Below are positions 57,155 through 64,000 of a DNA stretch of 64,000 nt, in pieces; the stretch's first letter is position 1, and each line of letters begins with the position of its first letter. The notes beneath the pieces were generated by a model. That model was not told the DNA's origin and made no database searches. It saw only the letters and a list, made by a program, of their open reading frames with translations. Position numbers and translations under genes: made by a program. Source of the DNA: Agrococcus carbonis (GTDB lineage: Bacteria > Actinomycetota > Actinomycetes > Actinomycetales > Microbacteriaceae); assembly GCF_900104705.1 (NCBI RefSeq), contig NZ_LT629734.1, positions 1,984,001-2,048,000 of the forward strand. The letters run 5' to 3'.

Positions 57155-58138
57155 TCAGCCGATCGGGGTGATGCGGATGCGCGGCACGAGCGGCGCCGGG
57201 TCGTCGATCGCGCCCGCTTGCGCGGCGAGCACCGCAGCCCCCGACCAGGCAGTCGCGCGGGCGAGCTGCTCCTCGAGCGTCGCGCCCTCGGCGATCGCCT
57301 GGGCGAGCGCGGCGACCGCGGCGTCGCCGGCGCCGGTGGGGTTGCCCTCGAGCACGTGGTCGAGCTGCGCGTGCCACGCGCGTCCGTCGGGCAGCACCGC
57401 GAGCATCCCCTCGACGTCGAGCGAGGCGAAGACGGTGCCCGTGCTCTCGGCCGCGAGCCTGCGTGCGGCGTCGAGCGGGTCGGTCCCGCCCATCGCGTCG
57501 AAGAGCTCGTGCCGGTTGGGCTTGACGGCGGTGGCGCCCGCGGCGGCCGCGTGGCGCAGCTGCTCGCCGCCGACGTCGACGATGACGGGCCTGCCGGCCG
57601 CGACCGCGGTCTCGACGATGCTGGCGCACAGCCCCTGCGGTGTCTGGGGCGGGAGCGATCCCGAGGAGACGATGACGCGTGCCCGCGGCGCCTCGTCGCG
57701 CACGATGGCGACGAGCCGCTCCCAGTCGGCCGGCGCGATCGGCTCGCCGGTCTCGTTGAGGTTGGTGGTGCCGGCGCGGGTGACGATCGCGGTGGTGCGC
57801 CGCGTGGGCGCGTCGACCTCGACGAGCCGGTGGGGGATGCCCGCACGGTCGAGGTCGTGCACGAACAGCACCTGCACGGGCCCGCCGATCGGGGCGATGA
57901 CGATCGCCGGCTCGTGCTGCTGGTGCAGCACCCGGGCGACGTTGACGCCCTTGCCGCCGGCGCACGCGAGGCCGGTGGGCACGCGGTGGCTCGTGCCGGG
58001 GCGCAGCTCGTCGATCGCGTAGGTGATGTCGATCGCGGGGTTCGTGGTGACGCAGAGGATCGGCGCGGGCCGGGTCGCGTCAGCGGTCGGTGCGACGCTC
58101 GGGTCGGTGACGGTGGGGTCATCGGCGACGTTCGCCAT
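57155..58138 (-). CDS. PfkB-family 1-phosphofructokinase-type sugar kinase
   Basis: 327 residues. CVTTNPAIDITYAID at the start, AGGKGVNVARVL (PfkB signature 1), and GNPTGAGDAAVAALAQAIAEG (signature 2 with the catalytic Asp) place it in the FruK/LacC branch, which phosphorylates fructose-1-phosphate or tagatose-6-phosphate. About 20 disordered residues precede the fold. No PTS genes are nearby, so the substrate stays open. ATG 58138 follows AGGAGG. Divergent from the SOS-boxed gene. Confidence 0.88.
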   Translation of the reverse strand: MANVADDPTVTDPSVAPTADATRPAPILCVTTNPAIDITYAIDELRPGTSHRVPTGLACAGGKGVNVARVLHQQHEPAIVIAPIGGPVQVLFVHDLDRAGIPHRLVEVDAPTRRTTAIVTRAGTTNLNETGEPIAPADWERLVAIVRDEAPRARVIVSSGSLPPQTPQGLCASIVETAVAAGRPVIVDVGGEQLRHAAAAGATAVKPNRHELFDAMGGTDPLDAARRLAAESTGTVFASLDVEGMLAVLPDGRAWHAQLDHVLEGNPTGAGDAAVAALAQAIAEGATLEEQLARATAWSGAAVLAAQAGAIDDPAPLVPRIRITPIG

Positions 58139-58232
58139 CCGGCCTCCTCGACGTGGATCCCCGCGCGGGGCGGAACGGCTCGATCATCCCACGGGAGGGG
58201 GCGCCCCGACACGCCGCCGGGGCTTGCAGCAT

Positions 58233-58248
58233 TCGAACACACGTTCGA
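58233..58248 (+). promoter_or_regulatory. LexA-binding SOS box
   Basis: TCGAAC-ACAC-GTTCGA is a perfect 6-4-6 palindrome and an exact match to the actinobacterial LexA consensus. It lies in the 126-bp divergent region, 16 bp before the start of the ImuA'-like gene, with TTGCAG (58224-58229) as a possible -35. Confidence 0.88.
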
Positions 58249-58264
58249 GAATGGAGGGATGGCG

Positions 58265-58966
58265 ATGGCATCGACGAGGCTCGAGCGCCGCACGGGGAGC
58301 GACCGCACGGCGACCGTCGAGGCGCTGCGCGCGAGGCTCCGCGGCATGCAGCAGGCCGCTCCGCAGCACGGGGTGCCGTCGCTCGATGCGGCCGCTCCCG
58401 CGGGGCTCGACGACGTGGTGCGGCGGCTGCGCTCGGGTGCCGTGCACAGCATCGACTCGCGCGGCCTCGCGCTCGTGTGCATGGGCGCGGCCATGCCGGC
58501 GGGCTCGTGGGGCGCGATCGTCGGGATGCCCGATCTCGGCATCGAAGCGGCGCGCGACCTCGGGGTGCCGATCGAGCGCATCGCGCTCGTGCCGCATCCG
58601 GGCCGCGCCTGGCTCGATGCCGTCGCGAGCCTCGTGGAGGCGATGCCGGTGGTGCTCGCCGCGTCGCCGGGCCGGGTGGCGCCCACGGATGCCGCGAGGC
58701 TCGTCGCGAGGCTGCGGCAGGCGTCGTCGACGCTGCTGGTCGCTGGGCCGTGGGCCGGCGCCGCCACGACCGTGCGCAGCGTGCGCGCCGAGTGGCAGGG
58801 GCTCGAGGATGGGGACGGGCGCATCGCGTCGGGCGACCTGCTCGTCGAGGTCGGCTCCGGCGGGGCCGCGCAGCTCGCGCGGATCCCGCTGCTCGAGCCT
58901 CGCGCAGCCGCCGCGGCCGCCGGTCATGGGGCACTCGGGCCGACCGCGGCGAGACCCGCCGCCTGA
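58265..58966 (+). CDS. imuA: ImuA'-like SOS mutagenesis protein (RecA-fold remnant)
   Basis: 233 residues. The order LALVCMGAAMPAGSWGAIVGMPDLGIEAARDLGV, IERIALVPHPGRAWLDAV, ARLRQASSTLLVAGPW and WQGLEDGDGRI matches actinobacterial ImuA', a RecA-like protein lacking a working Walker A that assists ImuB and DnaE2 in mutagenic translesion synthesis. No P-loop is visible, as expected. ATG 58265 is spaced 6 bases from GGAGGG; ATG 58259 is an alternative. The normal partners imuB and dnaE2 are not downstream: the next genes encode secreted proteins. Confidence 0.8.
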   Translation: MASTRLERRTGSDRTATVEALRARLRGMQQAAPQHGVPSLDAAAPAGLDDVVRRLRSGAVHSIDSRGLALVCMGAAMPAGSWGAIVGMPDLGIEAARDLGVPIERIALVPHPGRAWLDAVASLVEAMPVVLAASPGRVAPTDAARLVARLRQASSTLLVAGPWAGAATTVRSVRAEWQGLEDGDGRIASGDLLVEVGSGGAAQLARIPLLEPRAAAAAAGHGALGPTAARPAA

Positions 58967-59038
58967 GACACGCCCGACGCGCTCCTCGAGCCTTCGCTCA
59001 GGCATGGCTCAACCCTGTCCAAAGATCAATAACGCCGT

Positions 59039-59067
59039 TTGAATTCGATATGAGCCGGGCGTACTGT
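59039..59067 (+). promoter_or_regulatory. Sigma-A-type promoter of the secreted-protein genes
   Basis: TTGAAT (59039-59044), a 17-bp spacer, TACTGT (59062-59067). The surroundings are locally AT-rich. The leader is about 35 nt and includes GGGGAGG before ATG 59109. Confidence 0.75.
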
Positions 59068-59108
59068 ACCCCACGCAACCACTTCGAAGGCCCTCTGGGG
59101 AGGCGTTC

Positions 59109-60497
59109 ATGGACGCGCGGCGCAGGGAAGCGAGCACTCGCTTCGCCCGACGCGCCCTCGCCGCCGGAGCCGCCTCCCTCGGCGCCGTCGCCCTGTCGCT
59201 GCTGCTCGGCGGCGCGGCCTCGAGCGCCGCGGACGACCCGGCTGCACCCGCCGACACCACCGTGCTCACCGCGACGGAGGACGCGCAGCCCGTGCCGGCG
59301 GCCGAGCCAGCACCCGCTCCCGAAGCTGCGCCGGAACCCGTGATCTCGGAGCCGCTGCCGGTCGTCACCGAGCCTGCGCCAGTGGCCGAGGAGTCGGCGC
59401 CGGTGGCCGAGGAGCCCGCGCCGGGCGACGCCCCGACGGCCGCGCCGCCGATCGCGTCGGGGGAGGCCGAAGCGCCCCCCGCGCAACCCGCGACCGACCC
59501 CGTCGCGGCCACAGCCGATGCGCCGGCCGCCGAGCCGACGGCGACCGCGACCGCTCCTGAGCCGGGTCCCGTCGCGACGACCGTCGCGACGACCGCCGCG
59601 ACGACCGCCGAACCCGTCGCCGAGGCGCAGCCCGCGCCCGAGGGTGCGGCTCCGGTCGCGGCTGTGGCACCCGACGTCGGCACGACCTCCGTCGTCGTGG
59701 CGCAGAGCGACTGGAGCGTCGCCGGCTCGATCGAGGCGCTCGTGGAGCGCCTGCTCGCCGGGGTCGCGCCCGAGGTCGAAGCCCAGCCCGATGACCCGGC
59801 AGCCGCCCCCGCAGAGGCGCTGCTGCCCCCGATGCTGCAGGCGATCGTGCAGGACGCGCTCGCTGACGCGCTCGACCGCTGGATCGACGGCCTCCTCAGC
59901 GAATCGGTGCGACAGTCGCTCGCCGACCTCGTGCGCGATGCGCTCCGCGAGAGCATCGCGGCGGCGCTCACGGATGCGGACGGCTGGCTGTCCTCCATGG
60001 CCGACGTCGTGGCCGATGCGCCGCTGGTCCTCGAGCACGCGGTCACGGATGCGCTGCGGGCGGCGTCACCGACGCAGGCTGCGGCGATCGCGCCCGCGGC
60101 GATGCTCGCGCTGGTCCGCGACCTCGCGCATCCGCCCGGTACTCCGGTCTCGCAGGCAGCGGCCGACGGTGCGATCGGCGCGCCGAGCCCGAGCGCCGCG
60201 GCCGCGCCGTCGCACGCGCAGGCAGACCCGCTCGAGGGAGCGGCGCGCGTCGGTACGAGCACCAAGCTCGACCGCGTCGCGGGGCCGCTCGCGCCCCGGA
60301 AGGTGCCGCTGCCCGCGCCGGCGGGCGTCCCTGCCGGAGCCGTCGGCGGCTCGTCGGGCGGCGTCGGCTCGACGCAGCCGCTCGCCATCACCGAGACCTA
60401 CGTGCTGCCCCGTCCAGGGGACGGCGCGAACGATGCGGACGAAGCGAGCCGCATCCCGGACTCGCTCCCGCAGGACTGCATCGCCCATCCGAACTGA
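59109..60497 (+). CDS. Secreted Ala/Pro-rich protein of unknown function
   Basis: 462 residues. N-terminal RRALAAGAASLGAVALSLLLGGAA is a signal peptide, with cleavage probably after ASSAA near residue 41. Residues about 45-195 are Pro/Ala/Glu/Thr-rich repeats (PAPEAAPEPV, VAEEPAP, TTVATTAATT). Residues about 200-335 are predicted amphipathic helices (IEALVERLLAG, LPPMLQAIVQDALADALDRWIDGLL, DLVRDALRESIAAAL). The C-terminal 80 residues are Gly/Pro-rich and end CIAHPN. No family recognised. It precedes the giant repeat protein by 83 bp and probably shares its promoter. The opposite-strand frame here is rejected for lack of promoter, SD and signal. Confidence 0.75.
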   Translation: MDARRREASTRFARRALAAGAASLGAVALSLLLGGAASSAADDPAAPADTTVLTATEDAQPVPAAEPAPAPEAAPEPVISEPLPVVTEPAPVAEESAPVAEEPAPGDAPTAAPPIASGEAEAPPAQPATDPVAATADAPAAEPTATATAPEPGPVATTVATTAATTAEPVAEAQPAPEGAAPVAAVAPDVGTTSVVVAQSDWSVAGSIEALVERLLAGVAPEVEAQPDDPAAAPAEALLPPMLQAIVQDALADALDRWIDGLLSESVRQSLADLVRDALRESIAAALTDADGWLSSMADVVADAPLVLEHAVTDALRAASPTQAAAIAPAAMLALVRDLAHPPGTPVSQAAADGAIGAPSPSAAAAPSHAQADPLEGAARVGTSTKLDRVAGPLAPRKVPLPAPAGVPAGAVGGSSGGVGSTQPLAITETYVLPRPGDGANDADEASRIPDSLPQDCIAHPN

Positions 60498-60498
60498 G

Positions 60499-60559
60499 TG
60501 GGGTCGTGACCGCGCGACGCGCGGAACGATGTCGGCCGCAACGATGCGGCTCGACCCCA
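60499..60559 (+). other. Self-complementary leader between the two secreted-protein genes
   Basis: TGGGGTCG (60499-60506) pairs with CGACCCCA (60552-60559), enclosing a second hairpin CCGCGC-GAC-GCGCGG (60510-60524). It has no T-tract and lies just before the SD (AAAGGGA) of the repeat-protein gene, so it may stabilise or modulate that message. Confidence 0.4.
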
Positions 60560-60580
60560 TCCACTTGAAAGGGATGAGCC

Positions 60581-63500
60581 ATGAAACAGCTCACCAAGCG
60601 CGCGCTGCTCGTCGTAGCGCTCGCTGGCGGCCTCTGGGCCGCAGGCACTGGCGTGGCCAGTGCCACGGAGGAGGGCTCCTTGAGCCCTGGCTCCGAAAGT
60701 CCACCGGTTGTGGCGACGGAGACCGTCGCTGAACCGGCAGCCGAGGCTCCGGCTACCGAGCCTGCGGCGCCGACTGCTGCGGATCCCGCCCCGGCGGCTC
60801 CGGCGGCTCCGCCCGCTGAGCCTCCGGCCCCGGCGGCTCCGGTCGCTGAGCCTCCGGCCCCGGCACCTCAGCCTGCAGCTCCCGAGGCACCAGCCCCGGC
60901 CCCTGCAGCGCCGGTCACCGAATCGGCAACCGCACCGGCCGCAGGGCCGGAGGCGGAGTCCGCACCGGTCACCACGACCGCGGCACCGACGTCGACGACG
61001 ACGTCGACGCCCACGTCGACCGGTGACGCGACGAGCGTGGGCTCGACCGGGTCGGCGACGGCGACGTCGTCGCCCACGGTCACGACGGGGACGCAGCCCA
61101 CGGGCTCGACCACCGCCGCGCCCACGACGACGCAGAGCGGCGGCGGCAGCGGCGTCCTGTCGGGCAACCAGCAGGTCACGAGCGGTGCCTACGCGTGCAA
61201 CTTCAGCGGCAACGCCATCTCGGTCTTCGGCGACGCGATCTCGGTCGGGTCGACGGGATCGGCGACGGCGACGTCGATGCCCTGGCTGTCGCTCTGGAGC
61301 GGCGGTCTGCTCACGGGCGGCAATATCCTGATCGACAGCTCGACTGGTGCCTGCAACATCAGCGGCATGGCGATCTCGGTGTTCGGCGATGCGAAGAGCA
61401 TCGACTCGACCGGGTCGGCGACGGCGACGTCGTCTCCCACGGCGAGCTCGTCGGGCAGCGGTGGAGGCGGCCTCCTGTCGGGCAACCAGCAGGTGGGCAG
61501 CTCCGCGACGGCATGGAACATCAGCGGCAACGCGATCTCCATCTTCGGCGACGCGAAGAGCATCAACTCGACCGGGTCCGCGACGGCGACGTCGTCCCCC
61601 TCGGCGAGCTCTTCGGGCGCCGGAGGCACGCTGTCGGGCAACCAGCAGGTCGGAAGCTCCGCGAGCGCGTGGAACTTCAGCGGCAACGCGATCTCCGTCT
61701 TCGGCGACGCGAAGAGCATCAACTCGACCGGGTCCGCGACGGCGACGTCGTCCCCCTCGGCGAGCTCTTCGGGCGGCGGAGGGATGCTCTCGGGGAACCA
61801 GCAGGTCGGCAGCTCGGCCGAGGCCTGGAACTTCAGCGGGAACGCGATCTCGGTGTTCGGCGACGCGAAGAGCATCGGCTCTGTCGGGTCGGCGACCGCG
61901 ACGTCGTCCCCGTCGGTCTCGTCCTCGGGCGAGTCGGACTGGGTGGCGTCGTTCATGGGCTGGCTGCTCTTCGGCAACCAGCAGGCTTGGAGCACGGCCG
62001 GCGCATGGAACATCAGCGGCAACGCGATCTCCGTGTTCGGCAGCGCGCTGAGCGAGGGCTCGACGGGTTCGGCGGAGGCGACGTCGTCGCCCGAGGTCGA
62101 GTCGTCGGGCGGCGAGGGTCTCCTGTCGGGCAACCAGCAGGTGACCAGCTCGGCCACGGCCACCAACTGGAGCGGCAACGCCGTCTCCGTGTTCGGTGAC
62201 GCGACGAGCGAGGACTCGACGGGTTCGGCCGAGGCGACGTCGTCGCCGCAGGTGCGCTCGTCGGGCAGTGAGGGGATGCTCTCGGGCAACCAGCAGGTCT
62301 CGTCCGAGGCTGAGGCGACGAACGTCAGCGGCAACGCCGTTGCGGTCTTCGGCGACGCCACGAGCGAGGACTCGACGGGTTCGGCGGAGGCGACGTCGTC
62401 GCCGCGCGTCCACTCGTCGGGCAGCGAGGGTCTCCTGTCGGGCAACCAGCAGGTGACCAGCTCGGCCACGGCCACGAACTGGAGCGGCAACGCTCTTGCG
62501 GTGTTCGGGGACGCGACGAGCGAGGACTCGACGGGTTCGGCGGAGGCGACGTCGTCGCCGCGCGTCGCCTCGTCGGGCAGCGACGGGATGGGCTCGGGCA
62601 ACCAGCAGGTCTCGTCCGAGGCTGAGGCGATGAACGTCAGCGGCAACGCCGTGGCGCTCTTCGGCGACGCCTCGAGCCACCACTCCGACGGCTGGGCGGA
62701 GGCGACCTCGTCGCCGCGCGTCCACTCGTCGGGCAGCGACGGTCTCCTCTCGGGGAACCAGCAGGTGACCAGCACGGCGTCGGCCACGAACTGGAGCGGC
62801 AACGCTCTTGCGGTGTTCGGGGACGCGTCGAGCAGGGGATCCGAAGGATCGGCCACGGCGACCTCGTCGCCGTCCGTCCGCTCGCACGGCAGCGATGGGA
62901 TGCTGTCGGGCAACCAGCACGTCAGCTCCGAGGCTTCGGCGATGAACGTCAGCGGCAATGCCGTTGCGCTCCTCGGCGACGCGCGGAGCTCGTGGTCGGA
63001 GGGCTCGGCCGAGGCGACGTCGTCGCCGCGGGTGCACTCGTCCGGCAGTGAGGGGATGCTCTCGGGCAACCAGCAGGTGATGAGCTCGGCCTCGGCCACC
63101 AACTGGAGCGGCAACGCTCTCGCGGTGCTCGGGGATGCGTCGAGCAGGGGATCCGAAGGATCGGCCACGGCGACCTCGTCGCCCTACGTCCGCTCCCACG
63201 GCAGCGATGGTCTGCTCTCGGGCAACCAGCAGGTCTGGTCCGATGCTGAGGCGATGAACGTCAGCGGCAATGCCGTTGCGCTCCTCGGCGACGCGTCGAG
63301 CCACCACTCCGACGGATGGGCCGAGGCGACCTCGTCGCCGCGGGTGCACTCGTCGGGAAGCGACGGGATGGGCTCGGGCAACCAGCAGGTGATGAGCTCG
63401 GCGTCGGCCACGAACTGGAGCGGCAACGCTCTGGCCGTGCTCGGCGACGCCACCAGCCGCGGCTCGTACGGATCGGCGGAGGCGACCTCGTCGCCCTACG

Positions 63501-64000
63501 TCCGGTCCCACGGCAGCGACGGTGTCCTGTCGGGCAACCAGCAGGTGATGTCCGACGCGTCGGCGATGAACGTCAGCGGCAACGCTGTCGCGCTCCTCGG
63601 CGACGCCCACTCCTCGTGGTCCGAGGGATCGGCCGAGGCGACCTCGTCGCCCCGCGTCCACTCCTCCGGCAGCGACGGCATGGGCTCGGGCAACCAGCAG
63701 GTGATGAGCGCGGCGTCCGCGGAGAACTGGAGCGGCAACGCTCTGGCGGTCCTCGGCGACGCGAGCAGCCGCGGCTCGTACGGATCGGCGGAGGCGACCT
63801 CGTCGCCGTACGTCCGGTCCCACGGCAGCGACGGCCTCCTGTCGGGCAACCAGCAGGTGACCTCGGATGCTGAGGCGATGAACGTCAGCGGCAACGCCGT
63901 GGCGCTCCTCGGCGATGCACGCAGCCACCACTCCGAGGGCTGGGCCGAGGCGACGTCGTCGCCCCGCGTCCACTCCTCGGGCAGCGATGGTGTCCTCTCC
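60581..64000 (+). CDS. Giant secreted tandem-repeat protein, chaplin-like repeats (3'-truncated by window edge)
   Basis: 1140 codons are open to the last base of the window. Residues 1-28 are a signal peptide (LTKRALLVVALAGGLWAAGTGVASA). Residues about 40-190 are Ala/Pro- then Thr/Ser-rich. From residue 192 there are 18 complete repeats and the start of a 19th, each built as LLSGNQQV...SGNA(I/V/L)(S/A)V(F/L)GDA.S..STGSAEATSSP. The SGN...GNAVxVxG core resembles the chaplin domain of Streptomyces surface proteins. Cysteines occur only in repeats 1 and 2. SD AAAGGGA precedes ATG 60581. No anchor is visible before the edge. Likely an extracellular or surface structural protein; function is inferred. 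Confidence 0.85.
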   Translation, partial: MKQLTKRALLVVALAGGLWAAGTGVASATEEGSLSPGSESPPVVATETVAEPAAEAPATEPAAPTAADPAPAAPAAPPAEPPAPAAPVAEPPAPAPQPAAPEAPAPAPAAPVTESATAPAAGPEAESAPVTTTAAPTSTTTSTPTSTGDATSVGSTGSATATSSPTVTTGTQPTGSTTAAPTTTQSGGGSGVLSGNQQVTSGAYACNFSGNAISVFGDAISVGSTGSATATSMPWLSLWSGGLLTGGNILIDSSTGACNISGMAISVFGDAKSIDSTGSATATSSPTASSSGSGGGGLLSGNQQVGSSATAWNISGNAISIFGDAKSINSTGSATATSSPSASSSGAGGTLSGNQQVGSSASAWNFSGNAISVFGDAKSINSTGSATATSSPSASSSGGGGMLSGNQQVGSSAEAWNFSGNAISVFGDAKSIGSVGSATATSSPSVSSSGESDWVASFMGWLLFGNQQAWSTAGAWNISGNAISVFGSALSEGSTGSAEATSSPEVESSGGEGLLSGNQQVTSSATATNWSGNAVSVFGDATSEDSTGSAEATSSPQVRSSGSEGMLSGNQQVSSEAEATNVSGNAVAVFGDATSEDSTGSAEATSSPRVHSSGSEGLLSGNQQVTSSATATNWSGNALAVFGDATSEDSTGSAEATSSPRVASSGSDGMGSGNQQVSSEAEAMNVSGNAVALFGDASSHHSDGWAEATSSPRVHSSGSDGLLSGNQQVTSTASATNWSGNALAVFGDASSRGSEGSATATSSPSVRSHGSDGMLSGNQHVSSEASAMNVSGNAVALLGDARSSWSEGSAEATSSPRVHSSGSEGMLSGNQQVMSSASATNWSGNALAVLGDASSRGSEGSATATSSPYVRSHGSDGLLSGNQQVWSDAEAMNVSGNAVALLGDASSHHSDGWAEATSSPRVHSSGSDGMGSGNQQVMSSASATNWSGNALAVLGDATSRGSYGSAEATSSPYVRSHGSDGVLSGNQQVMSDASAMNVSGNAVALLGDAHSSWSEGSAEATSSPRVHSSGSDGMGSGNQQVMSAASAENWSGNALAVLGDASSRGSYGSAEATSSPYVRSHGSDGLLSGNQQVTSDAEAMNVSGNAVALLGDARSHHSEGWAEATSSPRVHSSGSDGVLS
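61154..64000 (+). repeat. Tandem coding repeats, 156-bp unit in a 312-bp two-subtype register
   Basis: Repeats 1-6 vary in length (50-60 residues). Repeats 7-18 (62120-63991) are twelve units of exactly 52 codons. Within these, TNWSGNA(V/L)-type units and NVSGNAVA-type units alternate without exception, so the true period is 104 residues. The DNA is GC-rich enough to leave long spurious frames on the opposite strand. Confidence 0.9.

Follow-up and report, generated by a model that had tools for sequence, protein, structure and literature searches.

A 27-repeat chaplin-related protein with a wall-anchor signal, encoded beside a secreted-looking partner in Agrococcus carbonis

Chaplins are known as the water-repellent coat of aerial hyphae. 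The functional amyloids CsgA of curli and FapC are encoded with accessory proteins and are not known to be sortase-anchored. According to the available part of PMC5618241, chaplins form amyloid, short chaplins carry one domain and long chaplins two, the domains are hydrophobic, every chaplin except ChpE has two cysteines, and the long chaplins bear a sortase signal; the available part of PMC5148588 gives LAXTG as the signal of class E sortases. Chaplin-like genes outside aerial growers, in Arthrobacter chlorophenolicus, are described in a review whose accessible text also proposes that an attachment role may predate the others (PMC4255298). Here we describe a multi-chaplin gene of Agrococcus carbonis, found in a stretch of 64,000 nucleotides (the window; C1:1984001-2048000 of a single-contig genome of 2,773,210 bp, whose DNA beyond the window was also read). 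The gene is real and intact, and its product stands at the extreme of a chaplin-related family of wall proteins that is widespread. In our reading, to which we give a probability of about 0.6, it is the Agrococcus representative of a family whose proteins string together many chaplin-like domains and end in a sortase signal; encoded beside a secreted partner, it would form a beta rod held at the wall. The sequence shows the secretion signal, 27 repeats, LPxTG motif, sortase genes of the genome, a conserved partner gene, a repeat core under purifying selection and constraint on alternate residues; the function would be that of an anchored beta-structured fibre or adhesin.

The open reading frame (ORF) that begins at 60581 on the forward strand is still open at the window end at 64000. 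The full gene stops at G000:C1:2049740, 1,740 bp past the window, and encodes 1719 aa with 0 internal stops. The first-pass annotation, made on the window, had described a giant secreted protein with a signal peptide, a Pro/Thr-rich region and repeats, and this description stands, with 27 units in the full protein and an LPVTG anchor signal found on reading past 64000. A pseudogene, one of the counter-possibilities named there, is ruled out by the 1719 codons without a stop. The parts that lie in the window are as follows.

60581..64000, forward strand: multi-chaplin surface protein gene, first 1140 codons (full gene L009:2581-7740, 1719 aa)
60581..60664, forward strand: signal peptide of 28 aa, MKQLTKRALLVVALAGGLWAAGTGVASA, cleavage site placed by eye
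60665..61156, forward strand: Pro/Ala/Thr-rich linker, residues 29-192
61157..62122, forward strand: units 1-6, irregular (51, 55, 52, 52, 60 and 52 aa) and of neither A nor B type
62123..63994, forward strand: units 7-18, 52 aa each, in strict A/B alternation; units 19-27 continue outside the window

The signal-peptide motif AGGLWAAGT also opens 13 other Agrococcus gene copies (genes listed by that motif). The linker and the 27 Ser/Gly/Ala-rich units are followed by a Cys/Pro-rich tail with ECPEPP repeats, LPVTG, a hydrophobic stretch and RGRRR, giving a sortase-type C-terminus (LPVTGADASGLALPALVLLALGMMLMRGRRRERTMS) of LPxTG-type motif, hydrophobic stretch and positive tail. The regular 156-bp units had been placed from 62120; their length was right, and the start is 62123. 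Cysteines had been assigned to the first two repeats only, which holds inside the window (C206 and C258); beyond it lie six more, of which unit 27 has one and the tail five, leaving one each in units 1, 2 and 27 and 24 units without any.

The proposed relationship to chaplins was supported by Pfam. The whole protein matches PF03777 (ChpA-C) with 50.1 bits (E 2.4e-13, cut-off 21), a score reached by adding up repeats, and the window part alone with 38.3 bits; the four Agrococcus orthologues scanned also pass the cut-off. At E<=0.001, a single repeat exceeds the PF03777 cut-off in 11 of 60 relatives (own genome counted, without a match), among them 5 of 23 congeners, and in 0 of 14 controls. All 24 PF03777 matches in the genome (E<=10) lie inside the multi-chaplin gene, so that no second chaplin-like gene was found by this search, and the NCBIfam scan gave no match to the protein. 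Pfam matches to PAAR, Nepo_coat_N and Crystall were rejected, being below their cut-offs.

The protein resembles ChpA-C of Streptomyces coelicolor in its chaplin domains (PF03777), its secretion and its C-terminal sortase signal, but ChpA-C, in the available parts of the sources, have about 225 aa, two domains and LAXTG (PMC5618241, PMC5148588), as against 1719 aa, 27 repeats and LPVTG here. It further differs in having no Cys pair per repeat, hydrophilic cores and a conserved partner gene, and short chaplins were not found in the A. carbonis genome. Because it departs from the definition in the accessible part of PMC5618241 in the three features tested (domain number, 27 versus 1-2; two Cys in every chaplin but ChpE; hydrophobic domain), it is filed as chaplin-related and not as a chaplin. 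Comparison was made with a set of 201 members, counted as distinct records with >=4 repeats (33 later-found proteins left out). Their repeats are Cys-free in most cases (181/201), and several orthologues retain a Cys pair in their last repeat. Of 906 family units, 904 have Pro at core position 12; the 27 units here have Ala in 26 cases and Gly in one.

The PF03777 match, the amyloid assembly of chaplins and sortase signal of long chaplins given in the available part of PMC5618241, and the hydrophobic alternate positions of the wider family (V-x-A-P-V-T-V) would fit a classic chaplin role, in which the repeats self-assemble into a layer of hydrophobic amyloid, rendering the cell surface water-repellent or reducing surface tension. 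We consider this unlikely for A. carbonis, where the grand average of hydropathy (GRAVY) of the repeat core is -0.28, the lowest of the 201 members (median 0.49). The model positions 9, 11, 13 and 15, mostly V/A/L/I in the wider family, are here S/E/D, S/E/T, T/M/E and W/V, and no second chaplin-like gene was found in the genome at E<=10. The aromatic content (4.5%, median 0) is the highest of the set. The earlier idea of a long poly-chaplin fibre or coat survives in part, its hydrophobic form being weakened by the low GRAVY and the missing Pro; overall that interpretation is partly supported, and the observation under it is confirmed.

Relatives of the protein emerged to different extents with different queries. 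A first protein search returned one relative only, and a scan of genome contigs with the single protein as query returned none; a query built from the orthologue alignment did succeed, yielding 102 stretches that encode relatives, mostly in Microbacteriaceae and Intrasporangiaceae, of which 80, representing 77 loci, were kept. (Alignment A3 holds 69 of 123 fragments, alignment A6 66 rows.) A protein search gave 229 relatives; where the 120 listed matches carry names, these include chaplin family and DUF320. Queried with the repeats of the window itself, 13 of 40 genomes matched, own included and all Agrococcus; with the family alignment 13 of 24 Agrococcus genomes did. Full-length orthologues with the AGGLWAAGT signal peptide and LPxTG were found in nine congeners, one with two identical copies, while the gene copies of G004, G005 and G019 are broken by contig ends or N runs. 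The two identical proteins (L056 and L057, G006) are encoded on a single contig, about 277 kb from each other and in opposite orientation, and represent either a real duplication or an assembly artefact (G006 is rated 8% contaminated).

The comparison of repeat number across related strains, proposed in the first-pass annotation, was run on the congeners: the nine have 6-13 repeats each, as against 27 here. A repeat entered the count only if it exceeded 3 bits and 18 model positions, with a model whose seed includes units of the window. On this count 27 is the highest of the 201, some of whose counts are minima because the records are fragments; the next is 19, itself a fragment, and the 178 others with an anchor motif have at most 13. 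The C-termini of 215 records with >=3 repeats (duplicates included) comprise 157 with LAxTG, 27 with LPxTG, 5 with Ser for Thr and 26 with none, the A. carbonis protein and its nine Agrococcus orthologues having LPxTG instead of LAxTG. Four sortase genes were found in the genome: three exceed the NCBIfam cut-offs, of which one is class E and two are class C, and a class F-like one falls below. The two class C sortase genes, about 6 kb apart (G000:C1:1227938-1234270; L019, L020), probably mark a pilus locus.

Proteins named 'chaplin family', 'DUF320' or 'LPXTG cell wall anchor' in Microbacteriaceae and Intrasporangiaceae share the architecture, homologous repeats and upstream partner, but have fewer repeats, Pro at core position 12 and usually LAxTG. 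Chaplin-like proteins of Pseudonocardiales (some called 'PE-PGRS family' or 'DUF320') are also long (945-1817 aa), P0152 (1817 aa) being longer than the A. carbonis protein, but 31 of 34 of this type have no LPxTG/LAxTG-type end by motif, and 0-6 of their repeats match the repeat model. The group P0123-P0154 has a uniform signal peptide, mostly without a wall-anchor motif, and its named members are mostly Pseudonocardiales. Among the open-licence papers listed, in part only as best matches, no study of multi-chaplin proteins of Agrococcus or Microbacteriaceae, or of the partner, was recognised. The unusual length, the anchoring signal and the conserved partner beside the gene suggest that such surface proteins are widespread but overlooked. 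A chaplin-related family in bacteria that are not known to grow aerially would separate the domain's original role from its role in Streptomyces, the traits behind that separation being the wall signal, the far greater length, the mostly Cys-free repeats and the conserved partner.

Across the 20 regular units 7-26 (unit 27 excluded), 30 of 52 columns are invariant. Four units, modelled by AlphaFold2 (AF2) as the first-pass annotation had suggested, gave an all-beta structure with a predicted local distance difference test score (pLDDT) of 92. With strand limits taken from this model, column variability at even and odd positions, respectively, is 1.32 and 0.00 bits in strand 5-17, 1.91 and 0.00 in strand 27-30, 0.00 and 0.86 in strand 33-40, and 0.00 and 1.02 in strand 43-49; strand 20-24 (0.55 and 1.18 bits) lacks a fully invariant face. 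The A/B differences are confined to alternate residues in 4 of 5 predicted strands, with one A/B column (31) in a turn. The within-strand alternation score was matched by 2 of 20,000 shuffles, and in a strand-free test the lag-2 minus lag-1 autocorrelation (0.70) was matched by 13 of 20,000 column shuffles. These data lend sequence support to the two faces suggested earlier, and the model points to one strand face being constant and the other varied, a pattern that can be tested as a design rule for proteins of this kind. Of 77 other proteins, 65 show the same parity in the first strand, where the difference is far smaller (0.32 bits).

In the mechanism that we propose, the repeats would stack up as a long rod of beta structure fixed to the cell wall, built by the invariant face of small residues, and the variable face would display ladders of Trp, Tyr, Arg, His and Glu that may contact neighbouring cells, matrix or surfaces. 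A plain spacer, that is, a flexible and partly disordered stalk that lifts the N-terminal region or covers the wall, would agree with the Ser/Gly/Ala-rich repeats and with the weak fold confidence obtained for a less regular relative; it appears improbable, somewhat more so than the classic chaplin role, given the 30 invariant columns, a core under tighter constraint than any other part of the A units, and an N-terminal part in which no Pfam domain was detected to be lifted. Fold comparison with CsgA and FapC gave weak, non-significant matches; the likeness lies in the tandem beta-repeats, and no sequence relation was found. A sequence search of the PDB gave nothing useful (best E 0.75). An antifreeze-type beta-solenoid that binds ice or surfaces is very improbable: its Z score is within the unspecific range, and the face that varies does not form a flat array of Thr.

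The alternation of A and B units, from which the first-pass annotation started, is exact. It had reported twelve alternating units with a 312-bp super-repeat; units 7-18 are strictly of this form, the order continues through units 19-27, and units 7-27 read ABAB...A without exception, with unit starts exactly 52 aa (156 bp) apart. The parity contrast of 0.136 was matched by 0 of 20,000 unit-order shuffles, which overstate independence because the units are related copies. Mean amino acid identity between units is 0.71 at lag 1, 0.85 at lag 2 and 0.88 at lag 4, and Tandem Repeats Finder reports a period of 312 bp in 6.2 copies. The B units alternate in turn (EDS first, then HHS and SWS by turns), and therefore the full period is 624 bp, the array having a nested period of 156/312/624 bp. 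An exact 631-bp repeat at a shift of 624 bp, together with the identity of the DNA of units 17-19 to that of units 21-23, shows a recent four-unit duplication. Block duplication accounts for the origin of the alternation.

Whether the alternation also has a use is evenly balanced. If unequal crossing-over in blocks of 312 and 624 bp had passively produced it, it would have no function, in keeping with the exact 631-bp duplication and with two-unit periods that arose independently in P0076 and, more weakly, P0005. The parity test was run on 54 proteins with >=8 repeats (p values uncorrected), and p was below 0.05 in only two, the A. carbonis protein (0.001) and P0076 (0.042), with P0005 at 0.075. 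The ten congener genes with >=8 repeats gave p values of 0.15 to 0.99, none significant, a result that favours a functionless alternation and does not support the view of it as a property of the fibre type: among the congeners tested it is peculiar to the A. carbonis gene and is not a genus trait. Set against a passive origin without function are the strict register over 21 units, the one-faced A/B differences throughout strands 1, 3, 4 and 5, and ratios of nonsynonymous to synonymous proportions (pN/pS; Nei-Gojobori proportions over related copies, hence a rough guide) below 0.5 within each type: 0.45 for A-A and 0.37 for B-B, with 0.62 for A-B, over the whole unit. In the core (residues 1-27) pN/pS is 0.31 within A and 0.28 within B, and the core is taken to be under purifying selection because of these low values; residues 28-41 give 0.59 within A and 0.78 within B, and residues 42-52 give 0.57 and 0.19. 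In the proposed rod, lengthening would occur by duplication of unit blocks, and the alternation would be the trace of two-unit blocks that altered mainly the outer face. In congener L053 a run of two alternating unit types is seen by eye, despite its non-significant parity. In P0076, P0102 (Paramicrobacterium) and P0005 the units also alternate by twos, and their lengths alternate with them (62/60 or 54/56 aa).

The conserved partner, the variable slot in which the pair sits and the one-face rewriting are more interesting than the alternation. The partner and the gap behind it contribute two features to the window.

59109..60497, forward strand: secreted-looking partner of 462 aa, tail ...IPDSLPQDCIAHPN, ending 83 nt upstream of the multi-chaplin gene
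60510..60524, forward strand: hairpin in the 83-nt gap between the two genes, paired in 15 of 15 aligned Agrococcus leaders

An upstream ORF of >=100 aa ending SPD, TPD, APD, RPD, RPG or HPN was found at 70 of 73 other loci (4 of the 77 were excluded for too little upstream DNA), a tail list drawn up after examples had been seen. The three misses end TDVCPD, DPGSSPA and DPGSSPA and look like the same gene. As background, 88 of the 6174 ORFs of those loci end so, partners included; the loci were chosen by their multi-chaplin gene and not by the partner, though some are closely related and one is duplicated. The A. carbonis partner has no Pfam match at E<=1, and none of seven partners scanned passed a Pfam or NCBIfam cut-off. 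The partner would most likely serve export, nucleation or surface organisation. The GC hairpin in the gap has six pairs, and compensatory changes occur in five of them, for each pair in a single sequence. It is common to both slot types among the 15 leaders and may tune expression. Rfam gave no family within 58000-64000.

Several observations weigh against one or other part of the reading. No single repeat reaches the PF03777 cut-off, the best having 15.9 bits, and at E<=10 PF03777 also matches in 5 of 14 control genomes, none over the cut-off. The anchor family PF00746 was not reported for the A. carbonis protein at E<=0.01; orthologues L056 and L063 pass its cut-off and L060 misses it. The A. 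carbonis partner tail fits loosely (HPN for SPD), the protein is 21-36% identical to 11 relatives in a low-complexity alignment, and tblastn at 1e-4 with low-complexity masking found no relative of it in 20 Agrococcus loci. It is therefore counted as a member chiefly for its position, the type of its signal peptide and its tail.

In Agrococcus, the partner and multi-chaplin gene lie in or beside an ImuA'-ImuB-DnaE2 cassette, of which the window holds the following.

58233..58248, forward strand: LexA-box-like palindrome TCGAACACACGTTCGA before imuA', perfect match
58259..58966, forward strand: imuA' (DnaE2-dependent mutagenesis factor; NF058630, 8.7e-38), the left border of the slot

Downstream of the multi-chaplin gene, outside the window, follow imuB and then dnaE2, with a second perfect LexA-like palindrome at imuB (L009:7842). 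LexA control of the multi-chaplin gene was rejected, there being no box with 0 or 1 mismatch nearby; one with 2 mismatches lies inside the partner gene. Because a strong hairpin follows the multi-chaplin stop (L009:7750-7790; -39.4 kcal/mol, z -3.2; no U run), the transcript probably ends there, before imuB. At 8 of 15 Agrococcus loci (L052, L053, L054, L056, L057, L058, L061, L063) imuB starts <=200 bp from the gene end; the distance is about 0.9 kb in L066 (N run) and 2.1 kb in L064. The multi-chaplin gene precedes imuA' in L055, L059 and L060, and L062 and L065 stop at contig ends. Outside Agrococcus, cassette neighbours were found at 0 of 68 loci within the flanking DNA compared.

A wider proposal, tentative and in our view rather doubtful, is that these genes constitute a widespread, undescribed two-gene surface-fibre system of non-sporulating actinobacteria, in which a sortase-anchored multi-chaplin protein is paired with a dedicated secreted nucleator or organiser, as CsgB is for CsgA. 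The Agrococcus pair at its SOS-mutagenesis cassette would then be a surface-diversification locus, at which species come to differ by exchange, lengthening, one-face rewriting and loss of the repeat body. In a survey of the slot in 24 genomes, the multi-chaplin gene was present in 13 and the slot was empty in G001 (192 bp between the likely imuA' stop and the imuB box); G016 has a truncated remnant, and G003, G009, G012, G015 and G020 were given no slot type. Genes with the same signal peptide and LPxTG but a Cys-pair (LIDADVCLDLGLLGS...C) or related body occupy the slot in G014, G018, G022 (where the gene reaches the contig end) and G011 (assigned from match positions only). The alternative-body genes are located at L202:6029-7978, L199:6676-8007, L200 (contig end) and L201 (truncated). 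The Cys-pair body has no PF03777 match and, by eye, resembles the Cys-bearing last repeat of the orthologues.

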